Below, piece after piece: positions 14,104-63,038 of a stretch of DNA of 64,000 bases. The stretch lies in the NCBI GenBank assembly GCA_026120185.1, contig JANUWF010002356.1, positions 558,001 through 622,000 on the forward strand, read 5' to 3'. Both the position numbers and the translations under genes were made by a program. The stretch comes from Voacanga thouarsii. Taxonomy: Eukaryota > Streptophyta > Magnoliopsida > Gentianales > Apocynaceae. Position 1 is the stretch's first letter. The number at the start of each line of letters is the position of its first letter. Under the pieces are notes generated by a model. That model was given only the letters and a program-made list of their open reading frames with translations, did no database searches and had not been told where the DNA came from.

Positions 14104-15784
14104 TTCCGCTCCTCTCTTCCTCTTGTATACCAATTTGCACCCAATGGGTTTTATCCCTTCAGGTGAAGTTATAAGATCCCAAACTTGATTGAGGTACATA
14201 GACTCAATATCGGCTTTCATTGCTTCATGTCACAGATTTGCATCGGCATCAGCAATAGCCTCCTCGTATTTAGTGGGGTCTTATTCCTGATGGTCGGAGA
14301 CCAGCTCAAAGGCTTCTCCTGTCCATCTATCCGGAACCCTAGACACTCTCCCACTACGACGAGGCTCCATTTGCACAGGCTCTTGAGGCTGTGCCTCTTC
14401 TTGTTCCAGAATCGAGTTAGAAGAAGTTGATTCCGTAGATAACTTCTCCTAAAGTTCCAACCTCGTTGAACCTTTAGTGGAAATACTTTGATCATCTTCC
14501 AAGTATCTAGCATTGGTACTGACTAGTACATTCTGCTCCTTAGAATGATAAAAGTAACCTCCTTTTGTCCCTTTTGGATACCCAACAAAATAGCATAATT
14601 CTGATATTGGTTCCAACTTGTCTCCCTTGATCAATACATAAGTTGGACATCCCCAAATCCTGAGATGATTCAGACTTGGCTTATGCCCAGTCCACATCTC
14701 ATAGGGAGTCCTAGGTACTGATTTGGAATGCACCAAATTCAGAATATATACCGCTATCTCCAGGGCATATCTCCAAAAGGACACTGGAAGAGTATCATTA
14801 GACATCATGTTTCGGACCATTTCCATCAACGTCCTATTCCTTCTCTCAGCTACTCCGTTCTGCTGGGGTGTTTCTGGCACAGAGAGTTGGGATACTATCC
14901 CATGATGTACCATGTAGTCTTTGAATTCACCTAGGAGGCACTCTCCATCACGATCCGATTGTAAGGTTTTGATTAATTTACCTGTCCGACGCTCCACTTC
15001 AGCCTTAAACTCTTTGAACTTGTCAAAAGAGTTAGACTTGCGTCTCATCAGGTAAATATAACCATACCTCGTACAATCATCCGTGAACGTGATAAAGTAC
15101 TCAAAACCTCCCCTACCTGGTGTAGACAACGGACCACACACATCAATGTGAACAAGACTCAACACCTCTTTGGCTCTATCTGCCTTTGGCAGGATTCACA
15201 CTGAGGTCAATTTTTCAATCTCAATGAGCCCAAAGGCCCATCATGGATTAGCCTCTGAATCCTGGTTTAGTTAATATGACCCAACCTTAGATGCCAAATG
15301 TATGAATCATTGATATTGGTCTTTCTCTTCTTAGTTAAAGGTTTAGACAGAGCGTTATTTGATTGGTTATTAATAGGGTTTAAAAAGAACAGATTACCAT
15401 ACATGTGCCCAGTACATAAAATTTCTCCATCTCTACTGATAGAAATACCAGAATGGAAAGATACAGAATATCCTTGATTAATAAGTTTCGCAATTGAAAT
15501 CAAACTCTGACGAAAACCAGGTACATATAAAATGTCTTTTAAAATCACTATCTTATTACAATAAAAAATGAGATCCAACTCTCCCACTGCAAGGGCTCAG
15601 ACTTGTGCTCCATTACCCACTCGAAGCCCATGTTCGCCCTTCTTGAGTCTTTTTATCTTCCTAAATCCCTGCAAGGAGTTACAGATATGATCAGTGGCTC
15701 CTGAATCAACAATCCAAGTGGAAGTTGATCCTACCATTGATATGGACTCTAGATAGTAAACAGTACCTGTGGGGTTTTTCTTGG
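14104..15784 (-). pseudogene. copia-1 protease-integrase remnant
   Basis: The protease motif WIVDSGATDHIC lies near 15686-15720. It is followed by the pre-integrase WHLRLGHIN block near 15270 and an integrase core open from 15165 to 14449 with HIDVCGP, SDRDGE and NGVAERRNRTL, supplying the D, D and E catalytic positions. In-frame stops occur between gag and protease (around 15783) and again after the pre-integrase block. The integrase core itself is still open over about 240 codons. Confidence 0.88.
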
Positions 15785-16571
15785 CCTGAAGATCTGGACA
15801 CTATTTTTTCCAATGTCCCTTCTTCCCACACTTGAAGCACTTGCCCTTTGGTTTGTCCTTGGGCTGGGTCTTGGGCTGGGCTACTACATTTCCCTTCTTC
15901 CTCTTGAACTTTCTAGGTTTAGGTCCAGTTCTCGAGGAAGAAACCTTAGCAATCATGGCCTTTGACTGCGGCTTCATGACCTTCTCCACCATCTGGAGCT
16001 CCTTCATCAGTTCAGTTAAACTCATGTTCAACTTGTTCATGTTATAGTTTAACTTGAATTGGGTGAAAGAGCCCAGTAGAGATTCGAGAACCATATCCAC
16101 TTGGCTCTCGGGGTCAATGACAGCCCCTAAGATTTCTGCCTCCTCGAAAGCAGCAATCATCTTGAGCATATGCTCTCGGACTGATGCTCCCTCAGCCATC
16201 TTAGTGTTTACAATAGTTCGAAGAGCCTCCTGCCTTGCGGGCCGGCTCTTGTCTGCGAACATAGTTGTCAATGATTGACTTATGTCATATGCAGAAGCCA
16301 TGTGCTCGTGTTTTGACTGGAGCACATTAGACATGGAAGCTAACATACAGCAACGTGCCATTTCGTCAGCTTTCTTCCATGTCTTTTAAGCCTCTCGCTC
16401 TTCAGCGGTGGAACCTTCCCCGATAATAGGGCAGGTTTCGTAGAGGACATACTTATACTCCTCAACTGTGAGTATTATGTCCAAGTTCCTTTTCCAGTCC
16501 ACATAATTTGGACCCGTTAACTTATTTTCCCTGAGAATAATGGCCAATGGACTAAAAGAACCTCCCACCAT
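15785..16571 (-). pseudogene. copia-1 gag remnant
   Basis: Starts at the ATG 16571-16569 (MVGGSFSPLAIILRENKL), includes TGPNYVDWKRNLDI, and ends in a zinc knuckle CFKCGKKGHWKK. A TAA near 16386 interrupts the frame after EEREA, and a TAG replaces a residue directly behind the knuckle. Gag forms the retrotransposon particle and binds its RNA; this copy is broken. Confidence 0.88.
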
Positions 16572-26766: not shown

Positions 26767-27120
26767 TGTTATGAATTATTAGAATCTTTATTAATTAGTG
26801 GAGGCTCCACTAATTATGGATTTATGTGAATTATTATAGAAGATTTTTATGGATGTCCACCATTTAGTGGAGACACCACTGATTGAGATTAGTGGAAGAT
26901 GATGTATGCCATGATGTAATCCACTAATTAGAGCTCTATAAATAGAGCTATTCTCTAAGCTTGTAAGACACCATTATTTTGTGAAAGAAAGATTAGTGAA
27001 AGAAAGATTAGAGAAAATTGTGAGAGAAAAGAAAGAGAGAAATTCTTGTGCAAAATAGTTACAGTTTTATTAGTGTGTAGTGTGAAGATTTTATTCTAAC
27101 ACTACCCTAATTTTATAACA
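26767..27120 (+). repeat. 5' LTR of copia-2
   Basis: Starts TGTTATGAATT and ends TTTTATAACA. It carries a near-perfect palindrome (TTAATTAGTGGAG, one base, CTCCACTAATTA) and a TATA box embedded in another palindrome at 26931-26949. The sequence after the LTR is CGTTATCAGCACGAG, which is not the usual TGGTATCAGAGC primer site. Confidence 0.95.
26937..26944 (+). promoter_or_regulatory. TATA box of copia-2 5' LTR
   Basis: TATAAATA sits in the middle of the palindrome AGCTCTATAAATAGAGCT, at the place expected for the U3/R boundary. The same motif is kept in all four LTRs of this family, with one base changed in two of them. Confidence 0.75.
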
Positions 27121-27221
27121 CGTTATCAGCACGAGTCTCTACCGAGTACAAAAGCCGGAAGACTAAGCACGAGTTTACGCCGTTACCAAAGCCGGAAGAC
27201 AGTACGCATTTATTGATCTCT

Positions 27222-30200
27222 ATGGCTAACATCGCTAAACTCGAATTTGTAACCCTTGATATTTACGGAAAAAATTATATGTCATGGGTTCTCGATGCGA
27301 AATGCATCTAAATGTCGAAGGCCTTAGTGAAACTATTCAAGCAAATAATAGTGCATCTGCACAACACAAGGCTAAAACTTTGATTTTTATTCGTCGTCAT
27401 CTCGATGAAAATTTGAAAATGGAATATCTTACCGAAAAAGATCCATATGGCCTGTGGGTAAATTTAAAAGAAAGATTTGACCACCTGAATTTGACCACCT
27501 GAAGATGGTCGTACTACCTATTACACGGTATGAATGGTTGCACCTGAGGTTGCAAGATTTTAAAACCGTGAATGAATATAGCTCCGCAATGTATAAAATT
27601 ACATCTCAATTAAAATTATGCGGAGAAAAAGTGACTGATGAAGATATGTTGGAGAAGACATTCTCCACCTTTCATGCCTCGAATATTGTCCTGCAGACAA
27701 CAATATCGAGAAAAGGGGTATACAAAATAGACAGATTTAATTATCGCCCTCCTCATTGCGAGAGAAAAATAATGAGTTATTATTGAGAAATCATGAAGTC
27801 GGACCAATCGGCTCAACGAGCACTCCTGCAGTGAATGCTGTTGGCTCCAGTAGAAGCCATCGTTATAGTCGTGGTCGTGGCCATGGCCGTGACCGTGGTC
27901 GTGGTTATGGTCGTAGATACGCTCGATATTTTCCTTATCACAATTATAATCAAACTGTGAGAAATACTGGCCACCTGAAGTGGAACAGAAAAGATCAAAA
28001 GGGAAAAGAAAAAGAAATTGAAGAAAAGCATGATGATATATGTTATAGATGTGGCATGAAAGGTCATTGGTTACGAAACTGTCGTACGGCTAAGCATTTA
28101 GTTGAATTGTATCAAGCTTCATTGAAAAATAAAAATGTGGAAGCAAATTTTTCTCAACATCCAATAAATAATGTTGAGGATGATGATATTGATCCTGAAG
28201 ATCTTAATATCAATATTACCCATATGGATGTATCGGATTTTTTTGAACACCCAGACGGTAGGATAGACCATTTAATTGGTGATGGCGAGTGTCCGGAAGA
28301 ACTAAAGCCTCACCCTGATATTTTTGTATTTTCATTTTCATTCTATTCTAATAATATTTACGTTTACATATATATATTTGTGTTCAGATGGCTGTTGTTA
28401 ATGATGATGTATGCATTATTGATAGTGGAACTACACACACTATACTAAAAAATGATAAATATTTTTCTGATCTCAAAATGGGAGAAATAAATATTTATAC
28501 GATAAACGGTAGTGAAAATGTAATTGAGGGCTCCGGAAGAGCTAATATATTGTTGCCTAAAGGAACAACAATTATTATTGATAAGGCACTATTTTCCTCA
28601 AAATCCAGAAGAAAATTATTGAGTTTTAAAGATATCCGCATAAATGGGTATCATGTTGAAACAAATGAGAAAAATGGAATTGAGCATATTTTTATTACTC
28701 AAATGCATTTGGGTAAGGAATCGGTATTAGAAAAACTGCCGTCTTTTTCTACTGGTCTATATTTTGTAAAAATACGTACAATTAAAATTCATCATCTAGT
28801 AAAGTAGAAGTTTACTGATCCTATTACTTTTAGCATTTGGCATGACCGGTTGGATTATCCGGGATCTACCATGATGAGAAGAATCATTGAGAATACACAT
28901 GGTCATCCTTTAAAAAATAAAAGGATATTAACATCAGAAAAATTCGCATGTACTGCATGTTCCCTAGGAAAATTAATTGTTAAACCATCACCAGTAAAAG
29001 TAGGAGCTGAAAGTCCTACATTTCTCGAACGGATTCACGGAGATATTTGTGGACCGTTCAAATATTTTATGGTCTTAATTGATGCATCATCCCGATGGTC
29101 ACATGTATGTTTATTATCTACTCGCAACCTTGCGTTTGCGAGATTTCTTGCTCAAATAATTAAATTACGAGCACAATTTCCAGACCATCACATTAAAAAT
29201 ATCCGTTTGGATAATGCTGGTGAATTTTTATCACATGTTTTTTATGCATATTGCATGTCAATTGGGATTAATATTGAACATCCTGTAGCTCATGTTCACA
29301 CACAAAATGGTCTTGCTGAATCTTTGATTAAACGATTACAATTAATTGCTAGACCATTATTAATGAAAACAAATCTCCCAACATCTGCCTGGGGACATGC
29401 TATTCTACATGCCGCAACACTTGTACGTATAAGACCAGCCTAGTTATCATAAATTCCTCCTTTTGCAATTGGCTTTTGGGTCGAACCAAATATTGCTCAT
29501 TTAAGAATTTTTGGGTGTCTTGTATATATTCCAATTGCATCAAACCAACGTACAAATATGGGTCCTCAAAGAAGAAAGGGGATATACGTTGGATATAATT
29601 CTCCCTCTATTATCAGGTATGTTGAACCCACGACAGGAGATGTATTCACGACAAAATTTGTTGATTGTCATTTTGATGAATCATTATTCCCTAAATTAGG
29701 AGGAGAACCAAAACAGCATAAAAAGGATCTTGCTTGGACAACATCATTAAATTATCTTGATCCGCGCACAAGCGCATGTGAACTTGAAGTTCAAAAGATA
29801 ATTCATTTGCAAAACATTGCAAATCAAATGCCAGACGCTTTTGTTGACTCCAGAAGAGTTACAAAATCGCATATTCCGACTATAAATGCTCCTATTCGAA
29901 TTGAAGTTCCAGCAGAACAAAATATTATACCTATAGTTGCTTGAGTCAAAAACACGCCGAAGCGTGGCCGACCTCTTGGTTCTAAAGATAAAAATCCTCG
30001 AAAGAAAAGAGGATTAAATGATCCAGAAGATCATATTGAAGAAAAGAATGATAAAGACCAAGAGATAACCGATGACAAAGAACCGGAAGTTGATGAAAGT
30101 AACACTCGAAATTTCTATCAATTATACCACTTCGGTAGAAGTTGGAATCGGATAGAAACTGTTATTGATAATATATTTGCATACAATATATCTCTTGATG

Positions 30201-31859
30201 TTACACGGGATAATGATGATCCTGAACCAATATCGATTGATGAATGTCGGCATAGAAAAGATTGGTCGCAATGGAAAGATGCGATTCAATCGGAGTTAAA
30301 TGCAACGACAAAACGTGAAGTCTTCGGACTGCAGTCCGAACACCGGAAGGTGTAAAACCCGTTGGCTACAAATGGATATTTGTGCGAAAGCGCAATGAAA
30401 AGAGTGAAATCGTTCGATATAAAGCGCGATTAGTAGCCCAAGGTTTTTCACAAAGACCAGGTATTGATTATGATGAAACTTATTCTCCTGTTGTTGATGC
30501 TATTACACTCCGATATATTATCGGATTAGCGAGTACATGAAAAGATAGATATGCACCTATTAGATATTGTCATCTGCTTACTTGTATGGAAATTTAGAAA
30601 ATGATGTTTACATGAAAATCCCGAAGGATTTCATATGCCTGAAGCATATAAACATTATTCTCGTGAAAATTACTCCATCAAGTTGCGAAATCATTATATG
30701 ACCTGAAGCAATCAGGCGCATGTGGTTCACACGTCTTAGTGAATATTTATTGAAAGCGGGATTTAAAAATGACCAGGTATGTCCATGTGTTTTTATTAAG
30801 AAATTTGGTTCTAAATTTGTGATATTAGCTATATATGTTGATGATATTAATCTTATTGGAACTCCTGAAGAGCTCCAAGAAACAATTGATTATTTAAAAA
30901 GAGAATTCGAAATCAAGGATTTTGGTAAAACCAAATTTTGCCTTGGTTTACAAATTGAACATTTGGAGAGTGGAACATTTATTCATCAATCAACATATAC
31001 AGCAAAAGTGCTAAAAAGATTTTACATGGACAAAGCACATCCATTGAGTATTCCAATGATCGTCCGATCATTAAATGTGGATAAAGATCCTTTCCGACCT
31101 CAAGAAAATGATGAAGAACTCCTTGGTCCTGAAGTACCATGTCTCAGTGCAATTGGTGCATTGATGTATCTTGCTAATAATACATGACTTGATATTGCTT
31201 TTGCTGTCAATTTATTAGCAAGATTTAGTTCTTCACCAACACGACGACATTGGAATGGAATTAAACAAGTCATTCGATATCTCTAAGGTACAATTGATCT
31301 CGGATTATTTTATTCAAATAATACCAGTCCAACATTGATAGGTTATGCAGATGCTGGTTATTTATCTGATCCACATAAAGCACGTTCTCAAATGGGCTAT
31401 CTATTTACATGTGGAAATACTGCTATATCATGGCGTTCTACGAAACAATCTATAGCAGCTACTTCTTCAAATCATGCTGAAATTATAGCCATTCATGAAG
31501 CAAGTCGAGAATGTGTATGGCTAAAATCCATGATTCATTATATATCCGAGAAAGTTGTGGATTATCATCAATCAAAGGTATTCCAACTCCTCTTTATGAA
31601 GACAATGCAGCTTGCATAACTCAATTATGAGGAGGATATATTAAAGGAGATCGGACAAAACATATTTCACCAAAATTCTTCTTTACTCATGAACTCCAGA
31701 AGAAAGGTGAAATTGATGTGCTACAAATTCGGTCATGTGATAACCTCGCAGATATTTTTACGAAGACTTTACCGACTGCAACATTTGAAAAGTTGAGATA
31801 TAAAATCGATATGCGTAGGTTTAAAGATTTAAAGGAATTATCTCATCAGGGGGAGTAAT
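27222..31859 (+). pseudogene. copia-2 gag-pol polyprotein, broken by stops and frameshifts
   Basis: Starts MANIAKLEFVTLDIYGKNY at 27222. The Gag zinc knuckle CYRCGMKGHWLRNC lies near 28040-28080 and the protease motif CIIDSGTTH near 28410. The integrase core lies at 29035-29440, with HGDICGP, RLDNAGEF and NGLAESLIKR giving D, D and E. The RT has the intact active-site YVDD near 30835, and RNase H runs from about 31335 (GYADAGYLSDPHKARSQ) to the end near 31859. Damage includes a frameshift near 27290, a TAG at 28806, breaks at 30340-30720 and stops at about 31185 and 31285. Proteins could not be made full length from this copy. Confidence 0.93.
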
Positions 31860-31983
31860 AAACAGACATATAGAATAGTGTATTCTTTTTCCTTCACTAT
31901 ATTTTTTTTCCCACTGGGTTTTTATCTAGTAAGGTTTTAACGAGACATATTCTTTATGTAATGGATGGACATCCAATGGGGAG

Positions 31984-32337
31984 TGTTATGAATTATTGGA
32001 ATCTTTATTAATTAGTGGAGGCTCCACTAATTATGGATTTATGTGAATTATTATAGAAGATTTTTATGGATGTCCACCATTTAGTGGAGACACCACTAAT
32101 TGAGATTAGTGGAAGATGATGGATGCCATGATGTAATCCATTAATTAGAGCTCTATAAATAGGGCTATTCTCTAAGCTTGTAAGACACCATTATTTTGTG
32201 AAAGAAAGGTTAGTGAAAGAAAGATTAGAGAAAATTGTGAGAGAAAAGAAAGAGAGAAATTCTTGTGCAAAATAGTTAGAGTTTTATTAGTGTGTAGTGT
32301 GAAGATTTTATTCTAACACTACCCTAATTTTATAACA
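31984..32337 (+). repeat. 3' LTR of copia-2
   Basis: Same length as the 5' LTR with 7 differences by eye. Preceded by ATCCAATGGGGAG, the polypurine tract. Confidence 0.95.
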
Positions 32338-40100: not shown

Positions 40101-42290
40101 GACTTCCTGAAGATTGTTGCTGTCATCCTGAAGATCTATTAAAACTGTTTCTCTGTCGAAATATGAAGGCGTTTGTTTATCTACTCAGATAGTTATGAAG
40201 TGTCTGTTCTGTTGAGATCCCTTGGCTGGCATTTCCTCCATTTTAAATGGCAAGTTTGTATTCAACCTAGCTCTAGCACAATAAATTTGTCTAAATTAAC
40301 ATGTATGTCTCTTAGTGTAGGCTTCTCCATACTTGTTACACTGGAATATTCTTATTGATAAATTGACACTTACTTTATTGCAGTTCTTTGAGAAATAACA
40401 TGTATGTCTTTTAGTGTAGGCTTCTTCATACTTGTTACACTGGAATATTCTTATTGATAAATTGACACTTACTTTATTGCAGTTCTTAGAGAAATAACAT
40501 GTATGTCTTTTAGTGTAGGCTTCTTCATACTTGTTACACTGGAATATTCTTATTGATAAATTGACACTTACTTTATTGCAGTTCTTTGAGAAAAGACAGG
40601 TGGATCCACCAGGTTTGTGAAACCTCCTTGTTCTTTGATAAATTGATGAAACCTGTTTCTCTATGTTGAATGAAAATTTGCCTTGCTAGTATTTGACGTG
40701 CTGCTTCCAATTAGGACAATGAATTTGAAATGTGGGAAGTAGCATTTTAACTGTTCAAGTTTATAACTAGGATCTTTTATCATGTTGTTGGCAAACACAA
40801 CCGTGTAACTTTAGTTGCTATATTCTAGACAATAACTCAAGGCAGCAAAGCACTAGTTTGAATGATGAAGCATCAATGTGGGACAATGAAAATGGATATG
40901 AAGGGCCACATAATGAGGAGTATGTTGAGAGTCATTTGGAAGAGTCTCCTCCGCTTGTTTCTCAGCCTTGTCAGGTTTGTTTCTGCTCTCGAAGTACAAT
41001 ACTAATTTGTGCCTTCTGCTGTTATGGTTGACCAAAATTTGCACAGGCAAGTTTTCCCCATGGTAATAGAGTCCATTTAGATCAGTTTTTCTCTATAGCC
41101 AACTTGGCTTCATCCCACAACGTAAGAATCGAAACAAAACCTTAGTTTCCAAGATGGTGCATCTTTTAATATAACATTATGGACTGGACTTTTATTTAAT
41201 ACGTATATAGGATTTTGCATCTGAAATGAACAGCTTTTTGAGTTGCATAATCATTTCTGATTTTAACAATTGAAGGTCCTGCAGGGTGAAGTTCAGTATG
41301 ACAATTGACAAGTCTCCTAAACAAACTGATGTGCATATTCTGAAGAAAACTCTTTGGGATTGCATACAAGAATCTAGACAAATGCCTCAACTGGTGAGAT
41401 CATCAACATATTTCAGCATAATTTCTGGACGTGTGACATAAGATTTTAGAGGTTAAGCTTCATTTAGCTATTAGATTACCCTTGCAAAAGACATATCATT
41501 GTTCCAGCATTCTTGTCAGGTCATCTGTCAATAAAATCCCTGTGAGATCTTTTGTTATTATCATGGAAAATTAAATGTTGACATTGTAGATGAATTCGGA
41601 AAGCATGTCTCAATTCATTCGAGGTATATATTTGATGCCCTTTAAGCACGTTAAAGAATGCAGACAAACATAAGATGATGCAATGACCTGGATATTTAGA
41701 ACAAATACATTTAGGTAATAGTTACATTAGCTGGAGCATCACAGGATACTTTTGGGTGAAAAATAAACTAGGTGGGCTTTTACTCTTCACAAAATATGTA
41801 TTTTCTGTAAACTAATTAGCAGTTACCTTGATATAATTCATACTAGTAACAGTTAGCCAATTCCTGGATATTAAGACTTCGTCTGCAGAACAATCTCTTC
41901 GCCAGAAGAGTGCTTTTTTTTTATTACTTAAAGCTTGCAAATCGCTTGCATTTGTGTTTGAGCTTGGAAGCTGGATATGGAATGCGAAATACCCCTTGGT
42001 AGATGTCTGTGTTGGTAATAGATACCCCACGAAATGATCAGCATTGATGTGATCCGAGCATATTTTCTCTTTCTATGGATTATCTCTTGCTTCCAGGTTA
42101 GAAAGGATCAAATATCTTTCAAAGATGTTTTAGCTACTTTTCCAGCAGCGACAATATGGGACATTATTTCTCCTCATCTCTGTTTTATCTGCTTGTTGCA
42201 TTAAGCAAGTAAGCACAGTTTATGCGTCAAAGGTAACCCCAACTTGGATGATCTGACCATACTTACCTCCTTGTGCAAACATGTCTTAAC
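37176..42290 (+). pseudogene. Condensin complex subunit 2 (CAP-H / Barren) pseudogene
   Basis: CAP-H is the kleisin subunit of condensin I, needed for mitotic chromosome compaction. Collinear exon-like pieces match plant CAP-H: FFFLSNDDQLE near 37255, KINQKNTWELKLIDHLSEII (37561 on), LEAGVKIYSFRVDAVHSQA (from about 37805), DDGGIKGLLLYSLGVYGNCR (near 38960), DHWKYQNPK (near 39785), IFAPPRNPKSLLLP (near 40040), then CVKGNPNLDD-type C-terminal sequence near 42220. Introns are retained, so this is a duplicated genomic copy, not a retrocopy. Breaks: a frame shift in the first exon leading to TGA at 37326-37328, an in-frame TAG at about 39361, further shifts near 39410 and 39840, and a triplicated exon border at 40298-40594. 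It cannot encode full CAP-H. A heavily re-spliced transcript cannot be excluded. Confidence 0.85.
40298..40594 (+). repeat. Three tandem 99-bp copies of an intron-exon junction
   Basis: Units 40298-40396, 40397-40495 and 40496-40594 are nearly identical. Each contains a splice-acceptor-like TTTATTGCAG followed by TTCTT and AGAGAAA- or GAGAAA-type sequence, so a CAP-H intron 3' end and the first bases of the next exon have been triplicated. The first unit is the most diverged (CTCTTAG against CTTTTAG). Confidence 0.95.
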
Positions 42291-43499: not shown

Positions 43500-43904
43500 G
43501 TACTGAAGGAATTGAAGTACCAGAACACAATTTCCTCAATCTCATAGCTGCCGTCGATTTGAATAAACTCAACAAGGGATGGATATCCTCTAATCCTGAC
43601 CGCTTACTTGTTTCAACCCGTGCGCAGACATCAAATCAGGTGTCATTTATCGATGCTTTTTGTCTATTCACGTAGAGCGTGTAAGTGGGGCAAAAGTTTG
43701 TCGTTTAGATTTATTTTTTATTTAAGAAAAAGAAAGGGACTAGAGGGCCTATATTTAATTAAAAATATTTATTTTAAAGATAAATATAAGTAAAAGAAAA
43801 AGATTAATTATGATATTTTTATATTAATTAAAATATTTATATTCATACAAAATATAAATTAATACTTTATTTTTTTCTTCTATAAAATACAATAAATATT
43901 TATT

Positions 43905-44256
43905 TGTTATGAATTATTGGAACCTCCATTAATTAATGGAGGTTCCACTAATTATGGATTTATGTGAATTATTAGAAGATTTTTATGGATGTTCACCATT
44001 TAGTGGAGACACCATTAATTGAGATTAGTTGAAGATGATGTATGCCATGATGTATTCCACTAATTAGAGTTCTATAAATAGAGCTATTCTCTAAGCTTGT
44101 AATACACCATCATTTTGTGAAAGAAAGATTAGAGAAAGAATTGTGAGAGAAAGAAAGAGAGAAGTTTGAAGAGAAATTTTTGTGCAAAGAATAATTAGAA
44201 TTTTCTTAGTGTGTAGTGTGTAGATTTTATTCTAACACTACCCTAATTTTATAACA
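43905..44256 (+). repeat. 5' LTR of copia-3
   Basis: Starts TGTTATGAATT and ends TTTATAACA, with the same TATAAATA box. It is followed by CGTTATCAGCACGAG as in copia-2. Confidence 0.94.
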
Positions 44257-44875
44257 CGTTATCAGCACGAGTCTCTGCCGTTATTAAAGCCAGAAGACAG
44301 GTACGCATTTATTGATCTCGCTAAATTCGAATTTGTAACCCTTAATATTTCTAAAAAAAATTATATGTCATACAAAAATGCATCTAAATGCTAAAAAAAA
44401 GTAGATCTATATGTCATATGGATAAAAAGAAAGATTTGACCACCTGAAGATGGTCGTACTACCCACTGCACGGTATGAATGGTTGCACATGAAGTTGCAA
44501 GATTGTAAAATCGTGAACTTCGTGATGTATAAAACTACATCTTAGTTAAAAATTTTACGGAGAAAAAGTTACTGATGAAGTTATATTGGAGAAGTCATTC
44601 TCCACTTTTCATGTTCTACAGTAACAATATCGAGAAAAATGGTATCCAAAATTGACAGCTTTAACATGAGTTATTATTGAGAAATCATGAAGCCAGATGA
44701 ACTGGCTCAACAGCACTCCCAGAAGTGAATGCTGTTGGCTCCAGCAGAAGCCATCGTTATAGTCGTAGTTGTGGCAGTGGCCGTGGTTATGGTCATGGAC
44801 ACACTCGATATTTCCCTTATCACAGAGAAATACTGACCACCTGAAGTGGAACAGAAAAGATAATAAGGGAAAAAG
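44257..44875 (+). pseudogene. copia-3 gag remnant
   Basis: Fragments align with copia-2 gag (for example around TGGTCGTACTACCCACTGCA) but with many deletions and stops. There is no open frame. The zinc-knuckle end is missing because the captured segment begins here. Confidence 0.8.
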
Positions 44876-44918
44876 ATATTTCCATTAATAATAAGCATCA
44901 CATCTTTTATTCATATCA

Positions 44919-46258
44919 TTAGTGTTCATATGAACTTGAGGATACATGCTTATAGTTGCTCTTTTGTAATTGAGCTGACAAATGTAAGATGAAGGTTTGT
45001 AATTGTTCTTTTTCAATATTTACATTAGAGGAAAACAAACAATTAGTAATTATGGACTTCAACTCCTCTTTTTCTACATCCTCCTCCTTTTCTTTCCCCT
45101 TTGAGCCAGCATCGAGACTAGTAACAAAATTAGCCGTAAAATTACTGCGAAATGAGTCTTGAGATTTTATGATCTCCTTAAGTTTATTATAATTAAATTT
45201 CTTATTATATTTGGCCTTGAAGCATGCTTGTCTCAATTTCTGTGTTTGGTCCTCTAACTGCGTATTAGGACTTTCTTCCACCAACTGTTTTTCACATTCC
45301 AGTATCGCAATGGCTTCTTTCAACTTCTTCTCAGCCATATGTCCTCCTTCTTCTTTATTTTGCATCTCCTGTAAATCGAAGTGATATCATCGGTTATTTA
45401 CTTATAAATATTTCATAGTTTCATACTTGCAAATTATAAGTATGTATGAGAGAGAACTTGGACATTCTTGATTATGGTCTCTAAGTTCACCAATTTCCTG
45501 TGAGGCCATCGACGAATTCCTAACTCCCTACATCTTTTCTTTAGACGGGTTATGCCAATATTCAGTTCTTTGGCTGCGCTCTTGATTAGTAGGTAAAAGT
45601 ACTGCGAAATTGTTTCTCTTGATAGTGTTTGGGAGTTATTGCCTTTCTTTTCTCTCTGCCTCTTAATCATCTTCTTCTCCCTACGAATTTTGTCTGCAAT
45701 AATATCTTGAACTTCAATATTATGCATTTCATGAGTACTTACTCCGACTTCGTTGCCAAGACCACTCATTATTTCTCTTAGAAAAAGAAAATAATATCAG
45801 TAAAGGTAATACCATTCAAAATCCATGTTTAAATGTATAATAACCTGGAAACATATTCTGACTTTGTTCAAAATCCATTAGAGAGTAGAAAGGATCATGC
45901 ACAAGCATATCCTCATTCAAAGGAATAGCATCAAGAGGAACAGTATCAAAAGCAGTCTCTTGTAGGGGCAGATCAACTTGGTCCAAAGCAATATGTTCAA
46001 AACTTCCACTGATTTACATAAAAAACAAACCAAAAGAGAGTTTAATTTCATTATCAAGCATACTAAAAACAAATGGAATCCCTCAAAGGTATCTCACCTG
46101 AAATTAGGAGGAAGCGGTTGGTTTGGAAATGAAAACATATCAAAATCTTCTGCGTTCGAATTAGGCAGAAGCGGTTGGTTTGGAAAGGAAAATACATCAT
46201 CTGCTGCAGAAACTGAGTCAAAATTTGACCATGTCTCAAATGAATTACGAGTCTTCAT
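44919..46258 (-). CDS. RWP-RK domain (RKD-like) transcription factor inside copia-3, 363 aa
   Basis: RKD proteins are plant DNA-binding regulators of egg-cell and germline identity. Four exons read on the minus strand: 46258-46098, 46008-45845, 45774-45458 and 45368-44919. They join in frame over 1092 nt with GT-AG introns and no stop. Residues about 155-210 form the RWP-RK domain, with SRETISQYFYLLIKSAAKEL, RLKKRCRELGIRRWPHRK (core RWPHRK at 197-202) and a basic run before it. The N-terminus has two FPNQPL repeats and acidic sequence. The C-terminal exon is Lys/Glu-rich, likely coiled-coil, ending SSSSYEH. The gene lies antisense within the retrotransposon, replacing protease and integrase. 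About 245 bp of its own upstream DNA, with a TA run at 46321-46347, came along. The intact frame argues for recent capture or function. Expression is unknown. Confidence 0.78.
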
Positions 46259-46503
46259 ATCTACTTTGTGATTTTTGTTTTTGATGTTTACTAATGACTA
46301 ATAACTGAGATATATATCGATACATGTATATATATATATATATATATCTGTATGAGAAAGAAGAAGAGGTCGATGGTAGGTAGAGGGTCGGAGGAGAAGA
46401 AAAGACAAGAGAGGAAGAGGAAAAGTCGGTACCGGGAAGAGTGAAAAAAAAAAGAGATATTTTTCTTGACATTTCCTGCTTGTCATCATTTTTTTATATT
46501 TCT

Positions 46504-48700
46504 TTTCTTATTCTCTTGTGAAATCATTATTCCCTAAATTAGGAGGAGAACAGAAACAGTACAAGAAAGATCGTGATTGGACAATATCATTAAATTATCT
46601 TGATCCGCATACAAGCGCGTGTGAACTTGAAGTTCAAAAGATAATTTATTTGTAAAGCATTGCAAATCAAATGCCAGACGCTTTTGTTGACTTTAGAAGA
46701 GTAACAAAATCGCATATGCCAGCTATAAATGCTCCTATTGTAATTGAAGTTCCAACAGAACAAAAGATTTTACATATAGCTGCTGAGCCAAAAGCATGCC
46801 AGAAGCATGGCCGACCTCTTGGTTCTAAAGATAAAAATCCTCGAAAGAAAAGAGGATTAACTGATCCGTAAGATCATATTGAAGAAAAGAATGATAAAGA
46901 CCAAGAGATAACCGATGACAAAGAACCGTAAGTTGATGAAAGTAACACCGAAATTTCTATCAATTATACTACTTCCAGTAGAAGTTGGAATCGGATAGAA
47001 ACCGTTATTGATAATATATTTGCATACAATATATCTCTTAATGTTACACAGATAATGATGATCCCGAACCAATATCAATTGATGAATGTCGGCATAGAAA
47101 AGATTGGTCGCAATGGAAAGATGCGATTCAATCGAAGTTAAATGCACCGACAAAACGTGAAGTCTTCGGACCGCAATCCGAACACCGTAAGGTGTAAAAC
47201 CCGTTGGCTACAAATGGATATTTGTGCGAAAGCACAATGAAAATAGTGAAATCGTTCGATATAAAGCGCGATTAGTAGTCCAAGATTTTTCACAAAGACC
47301 AGGTATTGATTATGATGAAACTTATTCTCCCGTTGTTGATGCTATTACACTCCGATATCTTATCAGCTTAGCAAGACATGAAAAGATAGATATGCGCCTA
47401 TTAGATGTTGTCACTCGCTACTTGTATGGAAATTTAGAAAATGATGTTTACATGAAAATCCTCGAAGGATTTCATATGCCCGAAGCATATAAACATTATC
47501 CTCGTGAAAATTACTCCATCAAGTTGCGTAAATCATTATATGGCCTCGAAGCAACTGGGCGCATGTGGTTCACACGTCTTAGTGAATATTTATTGAAAGC
47601 GGGATTTAAAAATGACCAGGTATGTCCATGTGTTTTTATTAAGAAATCTGGTTCTAAATTTGTGATATTAGCTATATATGTTGATGATATTAATCTTATT
47701 GGAACTCCTGAAGAGCTCCAAGAAACAATTGATTATTTAAAAAGAGAATTCAAATCAAGGATTTTGGTAAAACCAAATTTTGCCTTGATTTACAAATTGA
47801 ACATCTGGAGAGTGGAACATTTATTCATCAATCAACATATACAAAGAAAAGTGCTAAAAAGATTTTACATGGACAAAGCACATCCATTGAGTATTCCAAT
47901 GATCGTCCGATCATTAAATGTGGATAAAGATCCTTTCCGACCTCAAGAAAATGATGAAGAACTCCTTGGTCCCGAAGTACCATATCTCAAAGGCAATTGG
48001 TGCATTGATGTATCTTGCTAATAACACACGACCCGATATTGCTTTTGCTGTCAATTTATTAGCAAGATTTAGTTCTTCACCAACACGACGACATTGGAAT
48101 GGAATTAAACAAGTCCTTCGATATCTCCAAGGTACAATTGATCTCGGATTATTTTATTCAAATAAAACCAATCCAACATTGATAGGTTATGCAGATGTCG
48201 GTTATTTATCTCGATCCACATAAAGCACGTTCTCAAACGGGCTATCTATTTACATGTGGAAATACCGCTATATCATGGCGTTCTACGAAACAATCTATAG
48301 CAGCCTACTTCTTCAAATCATGCCGAAATTATAGCCATTCATGAAGCAAGTCGAGAATGTGTATGGCTAAGATCCATGATTCATTATATCCGAGAAAGTT
48401 GTGGATTATCATCAATCAAAGATATTCCAACTCCTCTTTATGAAGACAATGCAGCTTGCATAGCTCAATTACGAGGAGGATATATTAAAGGAGATCGGAC
48501 AAAACATATTTCACCAAAATTCTTCTTTACTCATGAACTCCGTAAGAAATGTGAAATTGATGTGCTACAAATTCGGTCATGTGATAACCTCGCAGATATT
48601 TTCACGAAGACTTTACCGACTCGCAACATTTGAGAAGTTGAGATATAAAATCGGTATGCGTCGGTTTAAAGATTTAAAGGAATCATCTCATCGTGGGGAG
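46504..48700 (+). pseudogene. copia-3 reverse transcriptase / RNase H remnant
   Basis: Resumes collinearity with copia-2 at the segment just before RT. The RT is open from 47224 through the active-site YVDD (near 47680) to about 47750, where a lost base shifts the frame (EFEIKDFGK in copia-2 becomes EFKSRILVK). RNase H follows in pieces (YEDNAACIAQLRGG near 48440, THELRKKCEID near 48530). Earlier stops occur at about 46650, 46868 and 47196. No complete protein is possible. Confidence 0.88.
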
Positions 48701-48827
48701 TAATAAATGGACATATAGAATAGTGTACTTTTTTTCCTTCACTAGATTTTTTTCCCACTCGGGTTTTTATCTAGTAAGGTTTTAACGAGGCATATTCTTT
48801 ATGTATGGATGGACATCCAAGGGGGAG

Positions 48828-49179
48828 TGTTATGAATTATTGGAATCTCCATTAATTAGTGGAGGCTCCACTAATTATGGATTTATGTGAATTATTAGAA
48901 GATTTTTATGGATGTCCACCATTTAGTGGAGATACCATTAATTGAGATTAGTTGAAGATGATGTATGCCATGATGTATTCCACTAATTAGAGCTCTATAA
49001 ATAGAGCTATTCTCTAAGCTTGTAATACACCATCATTTTGTGAAAGAAAGATTAGAGAAAGAATTGTGAGAGAAAGAAAGAGAGAAGTTTGAAGAGAAAT
49101 TTTTGTGCAAAGAATAGTTAGAATTTTCTTAGTGTGTAGTGTGTAGATTTTATTCTAACACTACCCTAATTTTATAACA
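48828..49179 (+). repeat. 3' LTR of copia-3
   Basis: Same length as the 5' LTR; preceded by the polypurine tract AAGGGGGAG. Confidence 0.94.
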
Positions 49180-49184
49180 TTATT

Positions 49185-54282: not shown

Positions 54283-56248
54283 ATGAAGGAGTCAAAGAAA
54301 CTGGCCTGCAGCCCAGCTTTGCTGATCTCCTCGCTTATTGTTTTACCATTGGTTTACAGTGTAGTTTTTCAGATTGATCAATGTAAGTTCTCTTCCCTGT
54401 CATCTAATGGATTGTCTGTTGTAAAGTTTACCTTGTGTAAAGATTTTCGAACTCATGATGCATCCCTTTTATTTTGGTTGGTTTTGTGTTCCTGAAACAT
54501 GGTAGGGATCCTATATTTAGCAAACTGGGGTGGCACAGGAAATGTGCAAGAATCTGTTAAGTTTCTTCTGAGAAAGCTAGTAAGAGGTTCGTTTATTGTC
54601 CTTAAGCTTCATGGACTTGGTATTTATTCTTAAGTAATCAAAGCATTTATCTTATTGTTCCTCAGTTAGTTCCTGTCATTATAGCTTTGTATGCACGGAA
54701 AAACAAACAAATAGGCACATATCAGTGGAACAATATGCAATTTAAAGAAGCAGAACATGAGTTGATATACTCGTGATTTCGGTTTGAGAATTGCAGTATT
54801 ATACATCTGCTTTTTAAGTCCTCATAAGGAATGTACCCGAAAATCCTTTAAAAGTCTATCAGAGAACTCCCTTTTCTTGCAAAGGATTGTTCTTTTTTAT
54901 GCTTTTCAACCAGAATCATGAATCACTAGATTTAGATGATGGCACAGATATCCTGCGTATTCTTTTGTGTTGGCATACAGATTTTGCCACACATTCTTGC
55001 TTGCTTTTTAGTGCTCGTGATATGTGAATTCAGAATTTCTACCAAAAAATTTCCTTTTGATGGTCCTCAGAATATCTTATTAAGGGAAGTTGATACATAC
55101 AAGCAGGAGAGGATCAGAGACGGCTTGAAGGTACAGGATTTGCTTGCCTGTATGATGTGCATTCTAATATCTATATTTCCAGTAAAGAAGCCAGGATCGA
55201 TACCAGTGCACAGAAAATTTACATACATTCTGATCAAACATTCCGTCAAGAAGAAGCTCAGCCATATGCATTAAAAGGAGATCAGACGGCTATGGCCTTG
55301 GTTAAGCCTGTATCAATACAAGTTGGAAACATTACTCCACCATGTTGTGGTTACACACATGATGTGCCGGCTGTGGTTTTCTCATCGGGAGGCTTTGTAG
55401 GAAACATATTCCATGAAATCAATGATATCATCATTCCCTTGTTCATTACATCTTATCATTTCAGGTCCAATGTGAGATTTGTGGTTACTGATTTCCAGCT
55501 TTGGTTCATCAACAGATACAAGAAAATATTTTCCGGGTTGTCTCACTATGAGGTTATTGATGTGCCATCCAATGGAAGCGTCCATTGCTTTCCCGGAGCA
55601 GTAGTAGGACTAAAGTACCACGGCAATTTGGCCTTAAATGCCAGTGACATTCCTGGACGTTATTCCATGTTGAAATTCAGGCAATTCCTCACAAAATCAT
55701 ATAATTTCAAGATAAAGCATGTGTCTCAGATTGAAAAGCCTGTACTGCTTCTTATATCTCGTACAAAAAGAAGAACAATCGTGAATCAGGAGGAGGTAGT
55801 GTACATGATGCAGGAATTAGGCTTTCAAGTAATTATTGTAATGCCAAAGAAAATGTTAGATTTGGACAAATTTGCTCATGCAGTGAACTTGTGCAGTGTT
55901 ATGGTAGGAGTTCATGGTGCTGGACTAACAAATGAGCTCTTCTTGCCTAACGGGGCAGTTATGGTACAGGTGGTTCCATTAGCTCTTGACTGGGCTGCAA
56001 ATGCTTACTATGGTGCACCAGCTCATGACATGGGTTTGCAATACTTGGAATACAAAATTGAACCTGATGAGAGCTCACTCTACTACCTGTATGGCCCGGA
56101 TGATCCCATAATAGCAGATCCAGAATCCATAGCAGCAAAGGGTTATCGTGCTTTCAGGGAGGTGTATCTTGAAAAGCAGAATGTGCGGATTAATGTTGCA
56201 AGGTTTAGGAAGACCCTTGCTGGAGCTATGGAACTTATTGGACACTAA
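54283..56248 (+). CDS. GT61 family glycosyltransferase (copy A), 440 aa
   Basis: Type II membrane protein of glycosyltransferase family 61. Plant members are Golgi xylosyl-, arabinosyl- or N-acetylglucosaminyltransferases acting on cell-wall xylan or N-glycans; the substrate here is not predictable. Exons 54283-54382, 54506-54586 and 55107-56248 join in frame (1323 nt). Residues about 10-30 form a membrane anchor. The stem is short, then comes LVRGEDQRRLEGTGFAC at the exon 2-3 junction. The catalytic domain has GGFVGNIFHEINDIIIPLF (about 155-173) and HGAGLTNELFLP (about 330-341), both family signatures. The splice choice for exon 3 (CAAGCAG before GAGAGG) is supported because the tandem paralogue uses the same boundary. 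No damage was seen. Copy B lies 2 kb downstream in the same orientation. Confidence 0.9.
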
Positions 56249-58218: not shown

Positions 58219-60525
58219 ATGAAGAAGCCCGGAAGGGTGATCATCCGTTTGACACACATAATCTGCTTCCTTATTCCTCTCATTGTGCTTATTCAAGATC
58301 TTTATGGATTAAAGGCCCTGCCATTTTATCAAAGTAAAGTTGTCTTTTTTGTCACATCTAGGGTGATTTTGATTTTTTTTCCCCCCTTGATTCTGTTGTG
58401 CTTCTTCCGTTGTCTTTCTGATTTGTTGATACTTTTTTTTTTGTTGGTCATTGGAAAATTGACAGGAGTACAACAAGACTATAGTTGGCAACTAAGCAGC
58501 GTTGAAGATGCTGAATCCAGTGAAGTGCAGGAGGCCAAACCACTTAGTAGTGGGGGCACAGAAGCTGATGAAACACTACTGCAAGATCCTGATTCAGGGG
58601 AAGCAAGTCACCACAGCAGCAAGCTCAGTGAAACGATTGAAGTGCAGGGGTCGAAACCACACAGTTTCGATAGCAGAGTGGTCGATGCAACAACTATTCA
58701 AGAACACAAGTCAAGTCAAGTAAGTCTGTTCAACCAAACAATAGAAGTGCAGGATTCCAGCCAACAGAGTCTTGGAAGCGGAATAGTTGATGAAACTCTA
58801 CAAGATCATGAGTCCAGGCAAGCAAGTAGCAGCAGCAGAGAGTTCAAGGAAGGAACTGAAGTCAAGGAGTCCAAGCCACAAAGACTCGGAAGCATAGAAA
58901 CTGAAGAAACTCTACGGGAGTCCAGGAAAGCACATCAGAACAGCAGAGAGTCCAGTGAAACAGTAAGCAGAGAAGAAGAAGAGTTCAGTCAACTTACTAA
59001 AAGCAGCAGAGAGCTCAATGAAACAATTGAAGAGAGGAGGCTCGAGAAACTGAGCTTCAGCAAAGAAGGGGTGAATGGGACAGTAAAGCTGCAAGAATCC
59101 GAGCAACTAATCAGAAAGGTCCACGAAGCAATAGGAGGACAGGAATCCAGGCAACCTAGTCTCATCAACAGAGAGGGCAAGAACATGATAAAAGAGCATG
59201 ACTCCAGGGAATCCCTTTTCACAAGATTAGTGAGAGGTTTGCTCTTCTCCTGTTTTGTGATTAGTGCTATTTAACATCTCTGTTCTGTTTAGTAGGTTGC
59301 TTGCCTCCAACTACTATCAACTAACTGCAAGATTCGATGCAAACAAACAGGGGAAGATCGAACCAAGCTTGAAGCCACAGGCTTTGCGTGTGATACCGCT
59401 ATTCATTCTGTTGTTTGTGTCACAAATAATCCCACAACGATTGACATGGCCACAATGACAGTGCACATTCAAGCAGATCAAACTGTTGAACCTAATCATA
59501 CTGTTGTTCGGCCTTATGCCAGGCAAGAAGATGAAGATCTTCTCAGAACTATCAGACCAGTGAATATTTTCCACGGAAACACAACGCCACCAGCTTGTCA
59601 ACGCAACCACGATGTCCCTGCTGTGATCTTCTCATCTAGTGGCTTCACAGGAAATTTGTTCCACGAATTCAATGAAATCATCATCCCTTTGTTCATCACC
59701 ACTTACCATTTCCAGTCTCGTGTTCAATTTATTCTCATCGATTACAAGCCCACATTCGTAAACAAATATAAAAGCCTAATGTCAAGGTTGTCCTCGTACG
59801 AAGTCATAAATCCAGCTACAAATCCTAGTGTTCATTGTTTTTCAGGGGCAGTGGCTGGGCTCAAGTTTCATGACAATGTAGTTTTGAACTCGAGTGACAT
59901 TCCAGGCGGCTACACCATGCACAGCTTCAGGCAATTCCTTAGACGAACATATAGTTTGAAGATCATCAATGTGTCAGAGATTAAAAGACCAAAACTGATG
60001 CTTATATCCCGCCGTGGAACGAGAAGGTTTGTGAATGAAGCTCAGATGGTTAGGATGATGAAAGATTTAGGCTTTGAAGTCATTGTTGCCACGAAACCGG
60101 ATAGAATGTCCAACTTGAACAAATTTGCCAGGGTGGTAAACTCATGCAGCGTTCTGGTTGGGACTCATGGTGCTGGCCTTTCAAACGAACTGTTCTTGCC
60201 AGACGGTGCTGTAATTGTGCAAGTAGAACCACTGGGACTGGAATGGCCATCGGCCGTCTACTACGGCGATCCGGTTGAGGCCATGGGAGTGCATTACTTG
60301 CGGTATAAAATCGAACCAGAGGAGAGCACACTTTTGCATATTTACGGAAGAAACCACCCAGCAATTACAGATCCTGGATCCTTTTTTGCTCGGGGATACC
60401 AAGCTTTTCGTGCTGTGTACCTAGACCAGCAAAATATTAAGGTCAATCTTGTTAGGTTTAGGGGGACACTTCTTGAAGCACTCAGACTTACCGGATTCTC
60501 AACCTCACAAAACAGTAATCCTTAG
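58219..60525 (+). CDS. GT61 family glycosyltransferase (copy B) with long Ser/Glu-rich spacer, 686 aa
   Basis: Paralogue of copy A. Exons 58219-58333, 58466-59236 and 59351-60525 join in frame (2061 nt). The membrane anchor (IIRLTHIICFLIPLIVLIQ) is in exon 1. Exon 2 encodes about 255 hydrophilic residues rich in Ser, Glu, Gln and Lys. These contain loose repeats on ETIEVQ..S, followed by Ser-rich and VDET-type words. The catalytic domain starts with LVRGEDRTKLEATGFACD and has SGFTGNLFHEFNEIIIPLF and HGAGLSNELFLP (about 568-579). GT61 proteins are normally about 400-550 residues, so the spacer is unusual; copy A lacks it. Intron 1 (58334-58465, 132 nt) is T-rich with good splice sites. It is also stop-free and frame-neutral, so a retained-intron isoform is possible. 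Confidence 0.88.
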
Positions 60526-61080: not shown

Positions 61081-63038
61081 TCAAATATACTTCGAGTCTA
61101 GCAAACCACGGAGCATCATTGCAGCCGCAGAGTTTTCTGCATCTTTTACACGTGACTTTTCATCTCCGGTCACAAAAAGCACAGCCTCAGCAAACTCAAT
61201 TTGAACAGAGCATACAAATCTCCTGTCATGAGCAGGACCTATCTCCTTTTCAACTCTGCAGGCATTAGTGAACATCAAGAATATAAGACCCTACAAGTAT
61301 GGAGAACAGATTCATCCCCAAACCAGCACTATTCTTTCAAGCACACAGTCCGGAAATATACTATAGAATAGCTCCAACATTTTACTAATTTGGAAAGATG
61401 CATCATATTTGGCCAGGCAAAAACTTCAGTCATTTCCATTTTGAAGAAAATCAAATATACCTTATTGATACCAAAAACAAACTCCTGATTCAAGGTATAA
61501 TCTAGGGCATGATACAAGTATAAATCTGATAATTCACTTCAAAATTTCAGAAAAATCATCAGAAAACCATGCCATTAGTTTAGTTCAGATTGTGTCTATT
61601 TACCATTAAATCTATACCACAACTCAGCCCATTCAAACTGAAAACTTCATACCCGTAAATTGGTTTTGCCCATTTCTTCTTGCCACAAAGCTCATGAAGT
61701 TTCTGTTTTGCACTTTCAGAACCATTAAGTTCACCATAGATATCCAAGCCTAGTTTGTCAGCTATGCTATAAGGTAACTTTTCTAGAGCAGCTTTTGCCG
61801 CATGAAGCTTAGCATTTTCCTTCTGATCTGAAGAAGCTGTGGCAACAACCTGTCCATCCACAAAAACACTTGCAATATTCTTATCCCCTTTTCGCCAGTT
61901 CTTTATATCAACCTCCTTTCCATTCTTTTGGCATAATTCATACAGAAATGTTACAGGTTGCGGCTGCTGTTGTAGTACATCAAGAGTAACAATAGGCTCC
62001 AGTAAGCTTCTGAAGATCTGACAAAAGCCAAAGGAACAAAATGATCCACCTTTAACCAACTAAAAGTTTATGAGTACACCTTACAGCATTATATAATTAA
62101 TATAATGCCGGGGCCAGTTCTGAGAAAAACAATTTCTAATCGACAAAATCCTAGTTCAGACCACAAGAGAATGAATTTGTTAAGCTATGACATTAGACTG
62201 ATGCAATAATTCAATCCCACTCTTAATCAACAATATTTAGGCTAGAATTTCTTTTCTTTTGGAAACACTGATATTTGTAATCAAACTATGCTCCTCTCCA
62301 AGCGCAAGATTAAGAAATTAGAATTAGAATAAAAAAATGCAGTAAGTATGTACTCTGTGCCTCATACTTCAGTTTGTAATTGGGCTAGCATTTCTCATTT
62401 TCAATCCGTTCACCAAAAATTCAAGCAAGTTTCATATGGGAAGAAGAAACTGAATGACAGAAAGCACTGACCATCCAAAGATACTCCAAATCAAACCCAC
62501 AATCCACATATGCAGCTGCAGCTACCGACTCCACAACGTCTGCAAGAATCTTCGGTGCCTTCACAACTCCGCCGTACACCTCCGTTTCAACTTCTTGCTG
62601 CACTGCTATAGTGAAATCCCTCACCTAAACAATCAAAAAGCAAATCACCATCTCAGCACACCCAAGCAAAAACTCTCGAATCAACAATCAATGTCTTCAA
62701 AATTCGAACTTTTAACTTACTTTGTCATCCAGAGAAGAGGCATTGTGGCGGATATATCTATGAAGCCCATGTTTCACAGCAACCCGAGCCAACTTCTCGG
62801 TGCTAATGTTAGCAGCTCGAAGAAGAGAGAGGTCCCCAGGCTCAAGGTCAGGGTAAGCCAAATACACATAATTAGAAAAGGCCAAGCCAAGAGCAGCATC
62901 GCCGACGAACTCTAGCCGCTGGTACGAGGTGGATTCCGTGTAGGAAGGATGAGTCAGAGCATCCTCAAGAAGCTTCTTGTTTTTGAATTCGTAGCCCAGC
63001 AAATTCTCCACTGCTCTCACCGAGGTGGCCATGTCCAT
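61081..63038 (-). CDS. RTL2: RNase III-like protein (RTL2 type) with two dsRNA-binding domains, 336 aa
   Basis: Plant RTL2-type enzymes cleave double-stranded RNA in rRNA and small-RNA precursor processing. Exons on the minus strand: 63038-62721, 62624-62472, 62017-61653 and 61255-61081. They join in frame (1011 nt) with GT-AG introns. The start is the first ATG (MDMATSVRAVENLLGYEF); the same frame reaches a TGA upstream without another ATG. The RNase III signature YQRLEFVGDAALGL is at 39-52. Catalytic acids E43, D47, D135 and E138 are present; the first Glu of the classic ERLEF motif is Gln (Q40). dsRBD1 is at about 178-245 (FLYELCQKNGKEVDI to AKAALEKL) and dsRBD2 at about 260-330 (KQKLHELCGKKKWAKPIYG to AAAMMLRGLL). 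Assignment to RTL2 among RTL paralogues rests on this domain order. Confidence 0.9.

Follow-up and report, generated by a model that had tools for sequence, protein, structure and literature searches.

The window analysed here is a 64,000-nucleotide stretch of the Voacanga thouarsii genome, and positions 43905-49179 of its plus strand are occupied by copia-3, a whole LTR element enclosed by two perfectly matching copies of the target site duplication (TSD) TTATT (left copy 43900-43904, right copy 49180-49184). Its 5′ LTR (43905-44256, plus strand) and 3′ LTR (48828-49179, plus strand) are 98.0% identical over 352 compared sites, so that the initial annotation of this DNA was right in describing an element with both LTRs and a perfect TSD. 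The interior is composed of a plus-strand gag remnant (44257-44876), which is shortened by many gaps relative to the gag of copia-2 and stops short of the zinc knuckle, the RKD cargo lying on the minus strand antisense to copia-3 (44877-46521, from the 3′ UTR to the 5′ UTR or promoter-proximal part of the gene), and the plus-strand remainder of pol with its reverse transcriptase and RNase H part (46522-48827; RVT_2 at 47191-48018 with E-value 7.5e-44). Two TG...CA LTRs, a short TSD, and an RVT_2 reverse transcriptase (RT) are hallmarks of Ty1/copia elements, and the integrase that autonomous forms carry upstream of RT in pol is missing, RKD being located in this region; copia-3 is a non-autonomous Ty1/copia derivative.

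The extent of the replacement is seen from comparison with the cargo-free sister element copia-2 (26767-32337, plus strand, TSD GAGAT), with which copia-3 is collinear up to approximately 44876 and then again from approximately 46522. The segment of copia-2 absent from copia-3 (28010-29678) comprises zf-CCHC, Pol_BBD, GAG-pre-integrase, rve, and most of the SH3 domain, the integrase region of copia-2 being present in pieces. Thus a block of 1.65 kb stands in copia-3 in place of the zinc knuckle, protease-like barrel, pre-integrase, and integrase of its sister, in line with the approximately 1.6 kb initially proposed to replace the protease/integrase region. Open frames on the minus strand at 14449-16385 resemble, by eye, integrase and gag of another retroelement.

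Four minus-strand exons separated by short introns join into a protein of 363 aa: exon 1 (46098-46258, with ATG at 46258), exon 2 (45845-46008), exon 3 (45458-45774, with the RWP-RK domain at about 45488-45625 and the second AG of CTAAGAG as acceptor), and exon 4 (44919-45368, with the stop codon). The only Pfam match of this protein is RWP-RK (2e-20, 72.8 bits with cut-off 29.3), and the antisense four-exon RKD-like gene with retained introns was correctly recognized from the outset. RKD-type genes are regulators of egg cells. Since the PB1 domain marks NLPs among RWP-RK proteins, the cargo, in which the Pfam search detected RWP-RK without PB1, is RKD-type by the definition given in PMC11202622. 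The 363-aa protein has no solved-structure match at E up to 1, and no relatives of exon 3 were found in viral contigs.

Family Size, Common Junctions, and Age

The search for other copies with the same cargo, suggested in the initial annotation, was performed in the plant's own assembly (1.346 Gb, 1,848 contigs) and disclosed a large family. The 30-mer spanning the RKD|pol junction has, with up to 3 mismatches, 1,231 + 1,241 = 2,472 matches genome-wide (control 0), the RKD-type motif YFYxPIxxAA occurs 757 + 735 times (control 0), and the PF02042 profile gave 3,618 candidates, all 150 of the 150 scored being above the cut-off; these copy counts could overstate the number of loci, as the assembly may hold both haplotypes. 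The cargo block was near full length in 40 of 40 scored places, the window included, which are the best-scoring among 2,946 first-look candidates and hence biased to near relatives of the window copy; the other 39 are 96-97% identical to it. Both inner junctions are common to all 39 sister copies, matching at 28 or more of 30 bases on the gag side and 24 or more of 30 on the pol side. Both LTRs are present in 38 of 39, and perfect 5-bp TSDs, of 27 different kinds, flank 29 of these. The 5′ LTR of L031 is absent from its piece and the 3′ LTR of L022 is cut at the piece edge. LTR differences across sister copies range from 0.3 to 5.4%. A host-type gene thus lies within the element ends and moved with the element, which bears out the initial idea of capture by an LTR element.

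More diverged representatives extend this picture. Three of them (L048, L049, and L051), with cargo 77-83% identical to that of the window, keep the same gag-RKD-pol order and the same two junctions, and L053-L055, compared on the gag side of their pieces, have the gag|RKD junction in common. Since diverged subfamilies share junctions, one old capture appears to have founded the whole non-autonomous family. A private, recent capture by copia-3 is rejected by the number of junction matches and by the sharing of both junctions among sister copies; the proposal of recency made initially has to be abandoned in view of these matches and of the diverged subfamilies. Differences in introns and untranslated parts between L014 and L048 or L049 amount to 10-16%. 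At the rate of 1.3e-8 used in PMC10011142 and assumed here for this plant, these sequences would place subfamily divergence at some 4-7 million years, private changes being counted too, and the insertion in the window at some 0.8 million years.

Relative to copia-2, copies with cargo have a mosaic pol: in the 300 bp adjoining the cargo, 34 of 40 copies match copia-2 at 86-90% identity, the remaining 6 at 93-97%. This points to exchange of pol sequence with copia-2-like partners, as would be expected if their RNAs were co-packaged. The surrounding gag and RT were initially described as full of breaks; for RT this holds in the window copy and fails for the family, in which 18 of 40 copies have a 161-aa RT stretch open throughout in a single frame.

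Probable Constraint on the RKD Frame

The 40 copies also allow judging how intact the gene in the window is. Its frame is open over 363 aa, as was initially supposed, but comparison reveals two suspicious changes. The YFYxPI motif of the RWP-RK domain has Leu in the window copy against Pro in 37 of 40 copies. The intron-2 acceptor, TAG|G or TAG|A in 36 of 40, is lost in the window copy, the only one with CTAAG, so that splicing needs the second of two AGs (CTAAGAG|AA), the first leading to an immediate stop in frame. The clean frame is also not special to this copy, since 15 of 40 retain it at full length, two of these 15 with a changed splice site (L041 and L044).

If RKD were a pure passenger, a neutral filler spread by LTRs and trans-acting partners only, open frames would survive merely because copies are young. 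Several observations conform to this. Private changes look neutral (N181, S67-68, with 21 stops), introns diverge no faster than exons (26 of 250 intron sites versus approximately 13% of exon sites differ between L014 and L048), and intactness of RKD shows no relation to LTR age (p = 0.46). RKD is broken in the copy whose two LTRs differ least (1 difference in 338), and breakage in copies with very similar LTRs led us to reject the requirement for RKD in cis. Six stop positions are each found in at least two copies, meaning either that broken copies moved or that mutation recurred; broken copies seem to have transposed.

The differences between subfamilies speak against neutrality, with the reservation that all p values are uncorrected and that groups B and A′ contain four and three sequences, respectively. 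Majority-codon differences are N27 S24 between A and A′ (p = 0.002 against private changes, 0.005 by other counting) and N40 S23 between A and B (p = 0.08 and 0.037 by other counting). Stops are found in 0 of 71 and 0 of 56 between-subfamily differences versus 21 of 270 private ones (p = 0.010 and 0.032), and the same differences read in the five other frames give 3-9 stops each. The lowered N/S belongs mainly to the true frame, as four of the five other frames lack it and one antisense frame has a weak drop (p = 0.07). The stem of A has N12 S13 (p = 0.008); that of B, with N9 S2, speaks against constraint. Indels between L014 and L048, whose subfamilies A and B differ in introns and UTRs to the extent given above, have lengths divisible by three in 5 of 5 exonic cases versus 2 of 8 outside exons (p = 0.02). 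The in-frame share of exon indels in other pairs is less clear-cut, being 5/6, 5/6, 1/2, 1/3, 0/2, 2/3, and 7/9 (1/3, 0/2, and 2/3 belong to A′ pairs). Within subfamily A, shared and private changes have no significant difference in N/S (p = 0.13 and 0.08); for the RWP-RK domain alone, this comparison gives p = 0.027 and for the rest p = 0.59. We consider these comparisons as moderate support for past, frame-specific constraint (purifying selection) on RKD at the time when subfamilies diverged. The chances of RKD being a pure passenger appear to be slightly below even.

RKD Genes Linked to hAT Transposase

As for the parental locus, whose search was also proposed initially, the likely source is not simply a resident RKD gene: the closest relatives found outside copia are RKDs beside a hAT transposase. 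In L050 (G000:C2:1964700-1970400), RKD lacks copia flanks and is positioned head-to-head with a transposase having Dimer_Tnp_hAT (2e-26) and hAT-like RNase-H (7e-14) domains, which identify it as hAT. The 35 candidates scored among 3,619 matching L050 provided 34 transposase halves and 22 RKD halves in addition to those of L050. Each of these 22 RKD halves is next to a transposase half, with order and strand unchanged, giving 23 loci together with L050. Among the matches listed, 12 transposase halves are without an RKD half, and two of these loci, on C545 and C471, have an RKD domain a few kb further. The motif of this lineage, NVGLTxLK, counted by motif alone, occurs 270 times (control 7).

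In the unrooted tree built for exons 3-4, two hAT-linked RKDs group as a clade (1.00) separate from the copia RKDs, with L051 as the nearest (0.91). Both hAT-linked RKDs that were read carry stops; the 65-aa RWP-RK stretch is stop-free at 135 of the 150 places listed, copia and hAT kinds taken together. L058, a fragment of a host-type RKD for which 0.7 kb were read and showed no transposon, has VGLT as in the hAT type. Because of this shared motif the copia type of RKD looks derived, and the copia cargo therefore probably descends from the hAT-linked lineage. As for hAT termini, the search for TIRs and an 8-bp TSD around transposase and RKD yielded one chance-level candidate within the 5.7-kb piece; the ends seem to lie outside it, since matches of other copies run to both of its edges.

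Discussion

The observations are best accounted for, and probably correctly, by a large non-autonomous family derived from one founder capture of RKD as DNA, with hAT-linked relatives, partner-driven movement, and some selection on the frame. In the founder, the zinc-knuckle/protease/integrase block would have been replaced once by the RKD gene, which may have entered through repair of a break with a hAT-linked gene as the template, or else through nested insertion of hAT with subsequent deletion. Entry as DNA would explain the antisense orientation and the preservation of introns. The initial account, ascribing survival of the introns to antisense capture, agrees with the orientation and with their retention, while the antisense read-through RNA becomes unneeded if the gene came in as DNA. 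The family presumably moves with proteins of copia-2-like partners; it exchanges pol sequence with them, as seen from the mosaic pol, and has multiplied RKD to approximately 2,500 copies. The RKD protein would likely act in trans, helping the elements to be expressed or reactivated in egg cells or early embryos. On the best reading, two transposon orders acquired an RKD gene as cargo, which may be of use to them as an accessory gene. It seems doubtful that it is a true accessory gene, which hAT elements and then, by transfer, copia elements keep for their opening or activation in the female germline; if this were so, a mobile element would carry a host cell-fate switch timing its own movement.

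How the gene got in may be imagined differently. An RKD-bearing hAT element inserted into a founder copia could have lost its ends and transposase, together with the protease/integrase of the host element, by deletions. Antisense orientation, introns, and promoter-proximal sequence then come free, and a hAT-linked source does exist, but at least two deletions are required, and neither inner junction shows, by eye, a hAT end or an 8-bp duplication. By eye, the inner junctions of copia-3 show neither transposon ends nor a flanking duplication, the signs of a later nested insertion that the initial annotation regarded as fatal to its claim. Nested hAT insertion, which could be one of the ways for the founder capture to come about, is rather unlikely as the actual course of events. 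Still less probable is template switching onto an antisense read-through RNA of an RKD gene within a virus-like particle: plant retrotransposons undergo abnormal template switching and read-through transduction according to PMC13317346, and such a process accounts for unspliced antisense cargo, but it calls for two switches and a special antisense transcript, and no sequence feature demands RNA. That copia-3 itself recently took up a resident host RKD gene in a single event is, for all the clean frame and two-LTR structure of the window copy, hardly credible in the face of thousands of matches to the same junction and of old subfamilies.

Gene capture by plant LTR elements is already known (PMC13317346). 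Pearl millet and other grasses have been observed to contain RWP-RK genes inside LTR elements, and in pearl millet the growth of the gene family is connected with LTR activity (PMC10011142); antisense orientation, introns, replaced protease/integrase, thousands of copies, the test of the frame, and the hAT partner distinguish the present case from that report. As with Rider and SUN of tomato, an LTR retrotransposon moved a host gene segment to a new place, but the tomato example described in PMC13317346 concerns one locus, whereas here the cargo replaces a coding part of the element and is amplified genome-wide. Bs1 of maize likewise has host gene segments within an LTR element, though, according to the same source, these are incomplete segments of three genes and not one complete unspliced antisense transcription-factor gene. 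CitRKD1, implicated in citrus nucellar embryony, is also an RKD gene linked to a transposon, in the form of a MITE-like insertion, but with the transposon upstream of the host gene (PMC6090715) instead of the gene inside the transposon. Among the open-licence papers searched, none joined RWP-RK, LTR retrotransposon, and RKD, and none joined RWP-RK, hAT, transposase, and captured; we claim no priority.

With 5 RKD and 7 NLP genes in Arabidopsis and 7 RKD and 6 NLP genes in rice, as counted in PMC11202622, thousands of transposon-borne RKD copies contrast with 5 and 7, respectively; counting the members of the RWP-RK family in this plant without masking the element copies would give a badly exaggerated total. 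Expression of even a few of these copies could change the programmes of the egg cell or embryo, or affect apomixis, and if the elements need them, transposons would appear as carriers of developmental regulators used as tools. The case makes it possible to test whether transcription factors, once captured, serve as cargo or as equipment.

Elsewhere in the window, two adjacent glycosyltransferase 61 reading frames (55094-56245 and 59296-60522) are possibly tandem duplicates, a 99-bp unit is repeated in three tandem copies at 40294-40601, and a fragment of a double-stranded-RNA-binding protein (dsrm, 1e-11) is located at 61583-62059.
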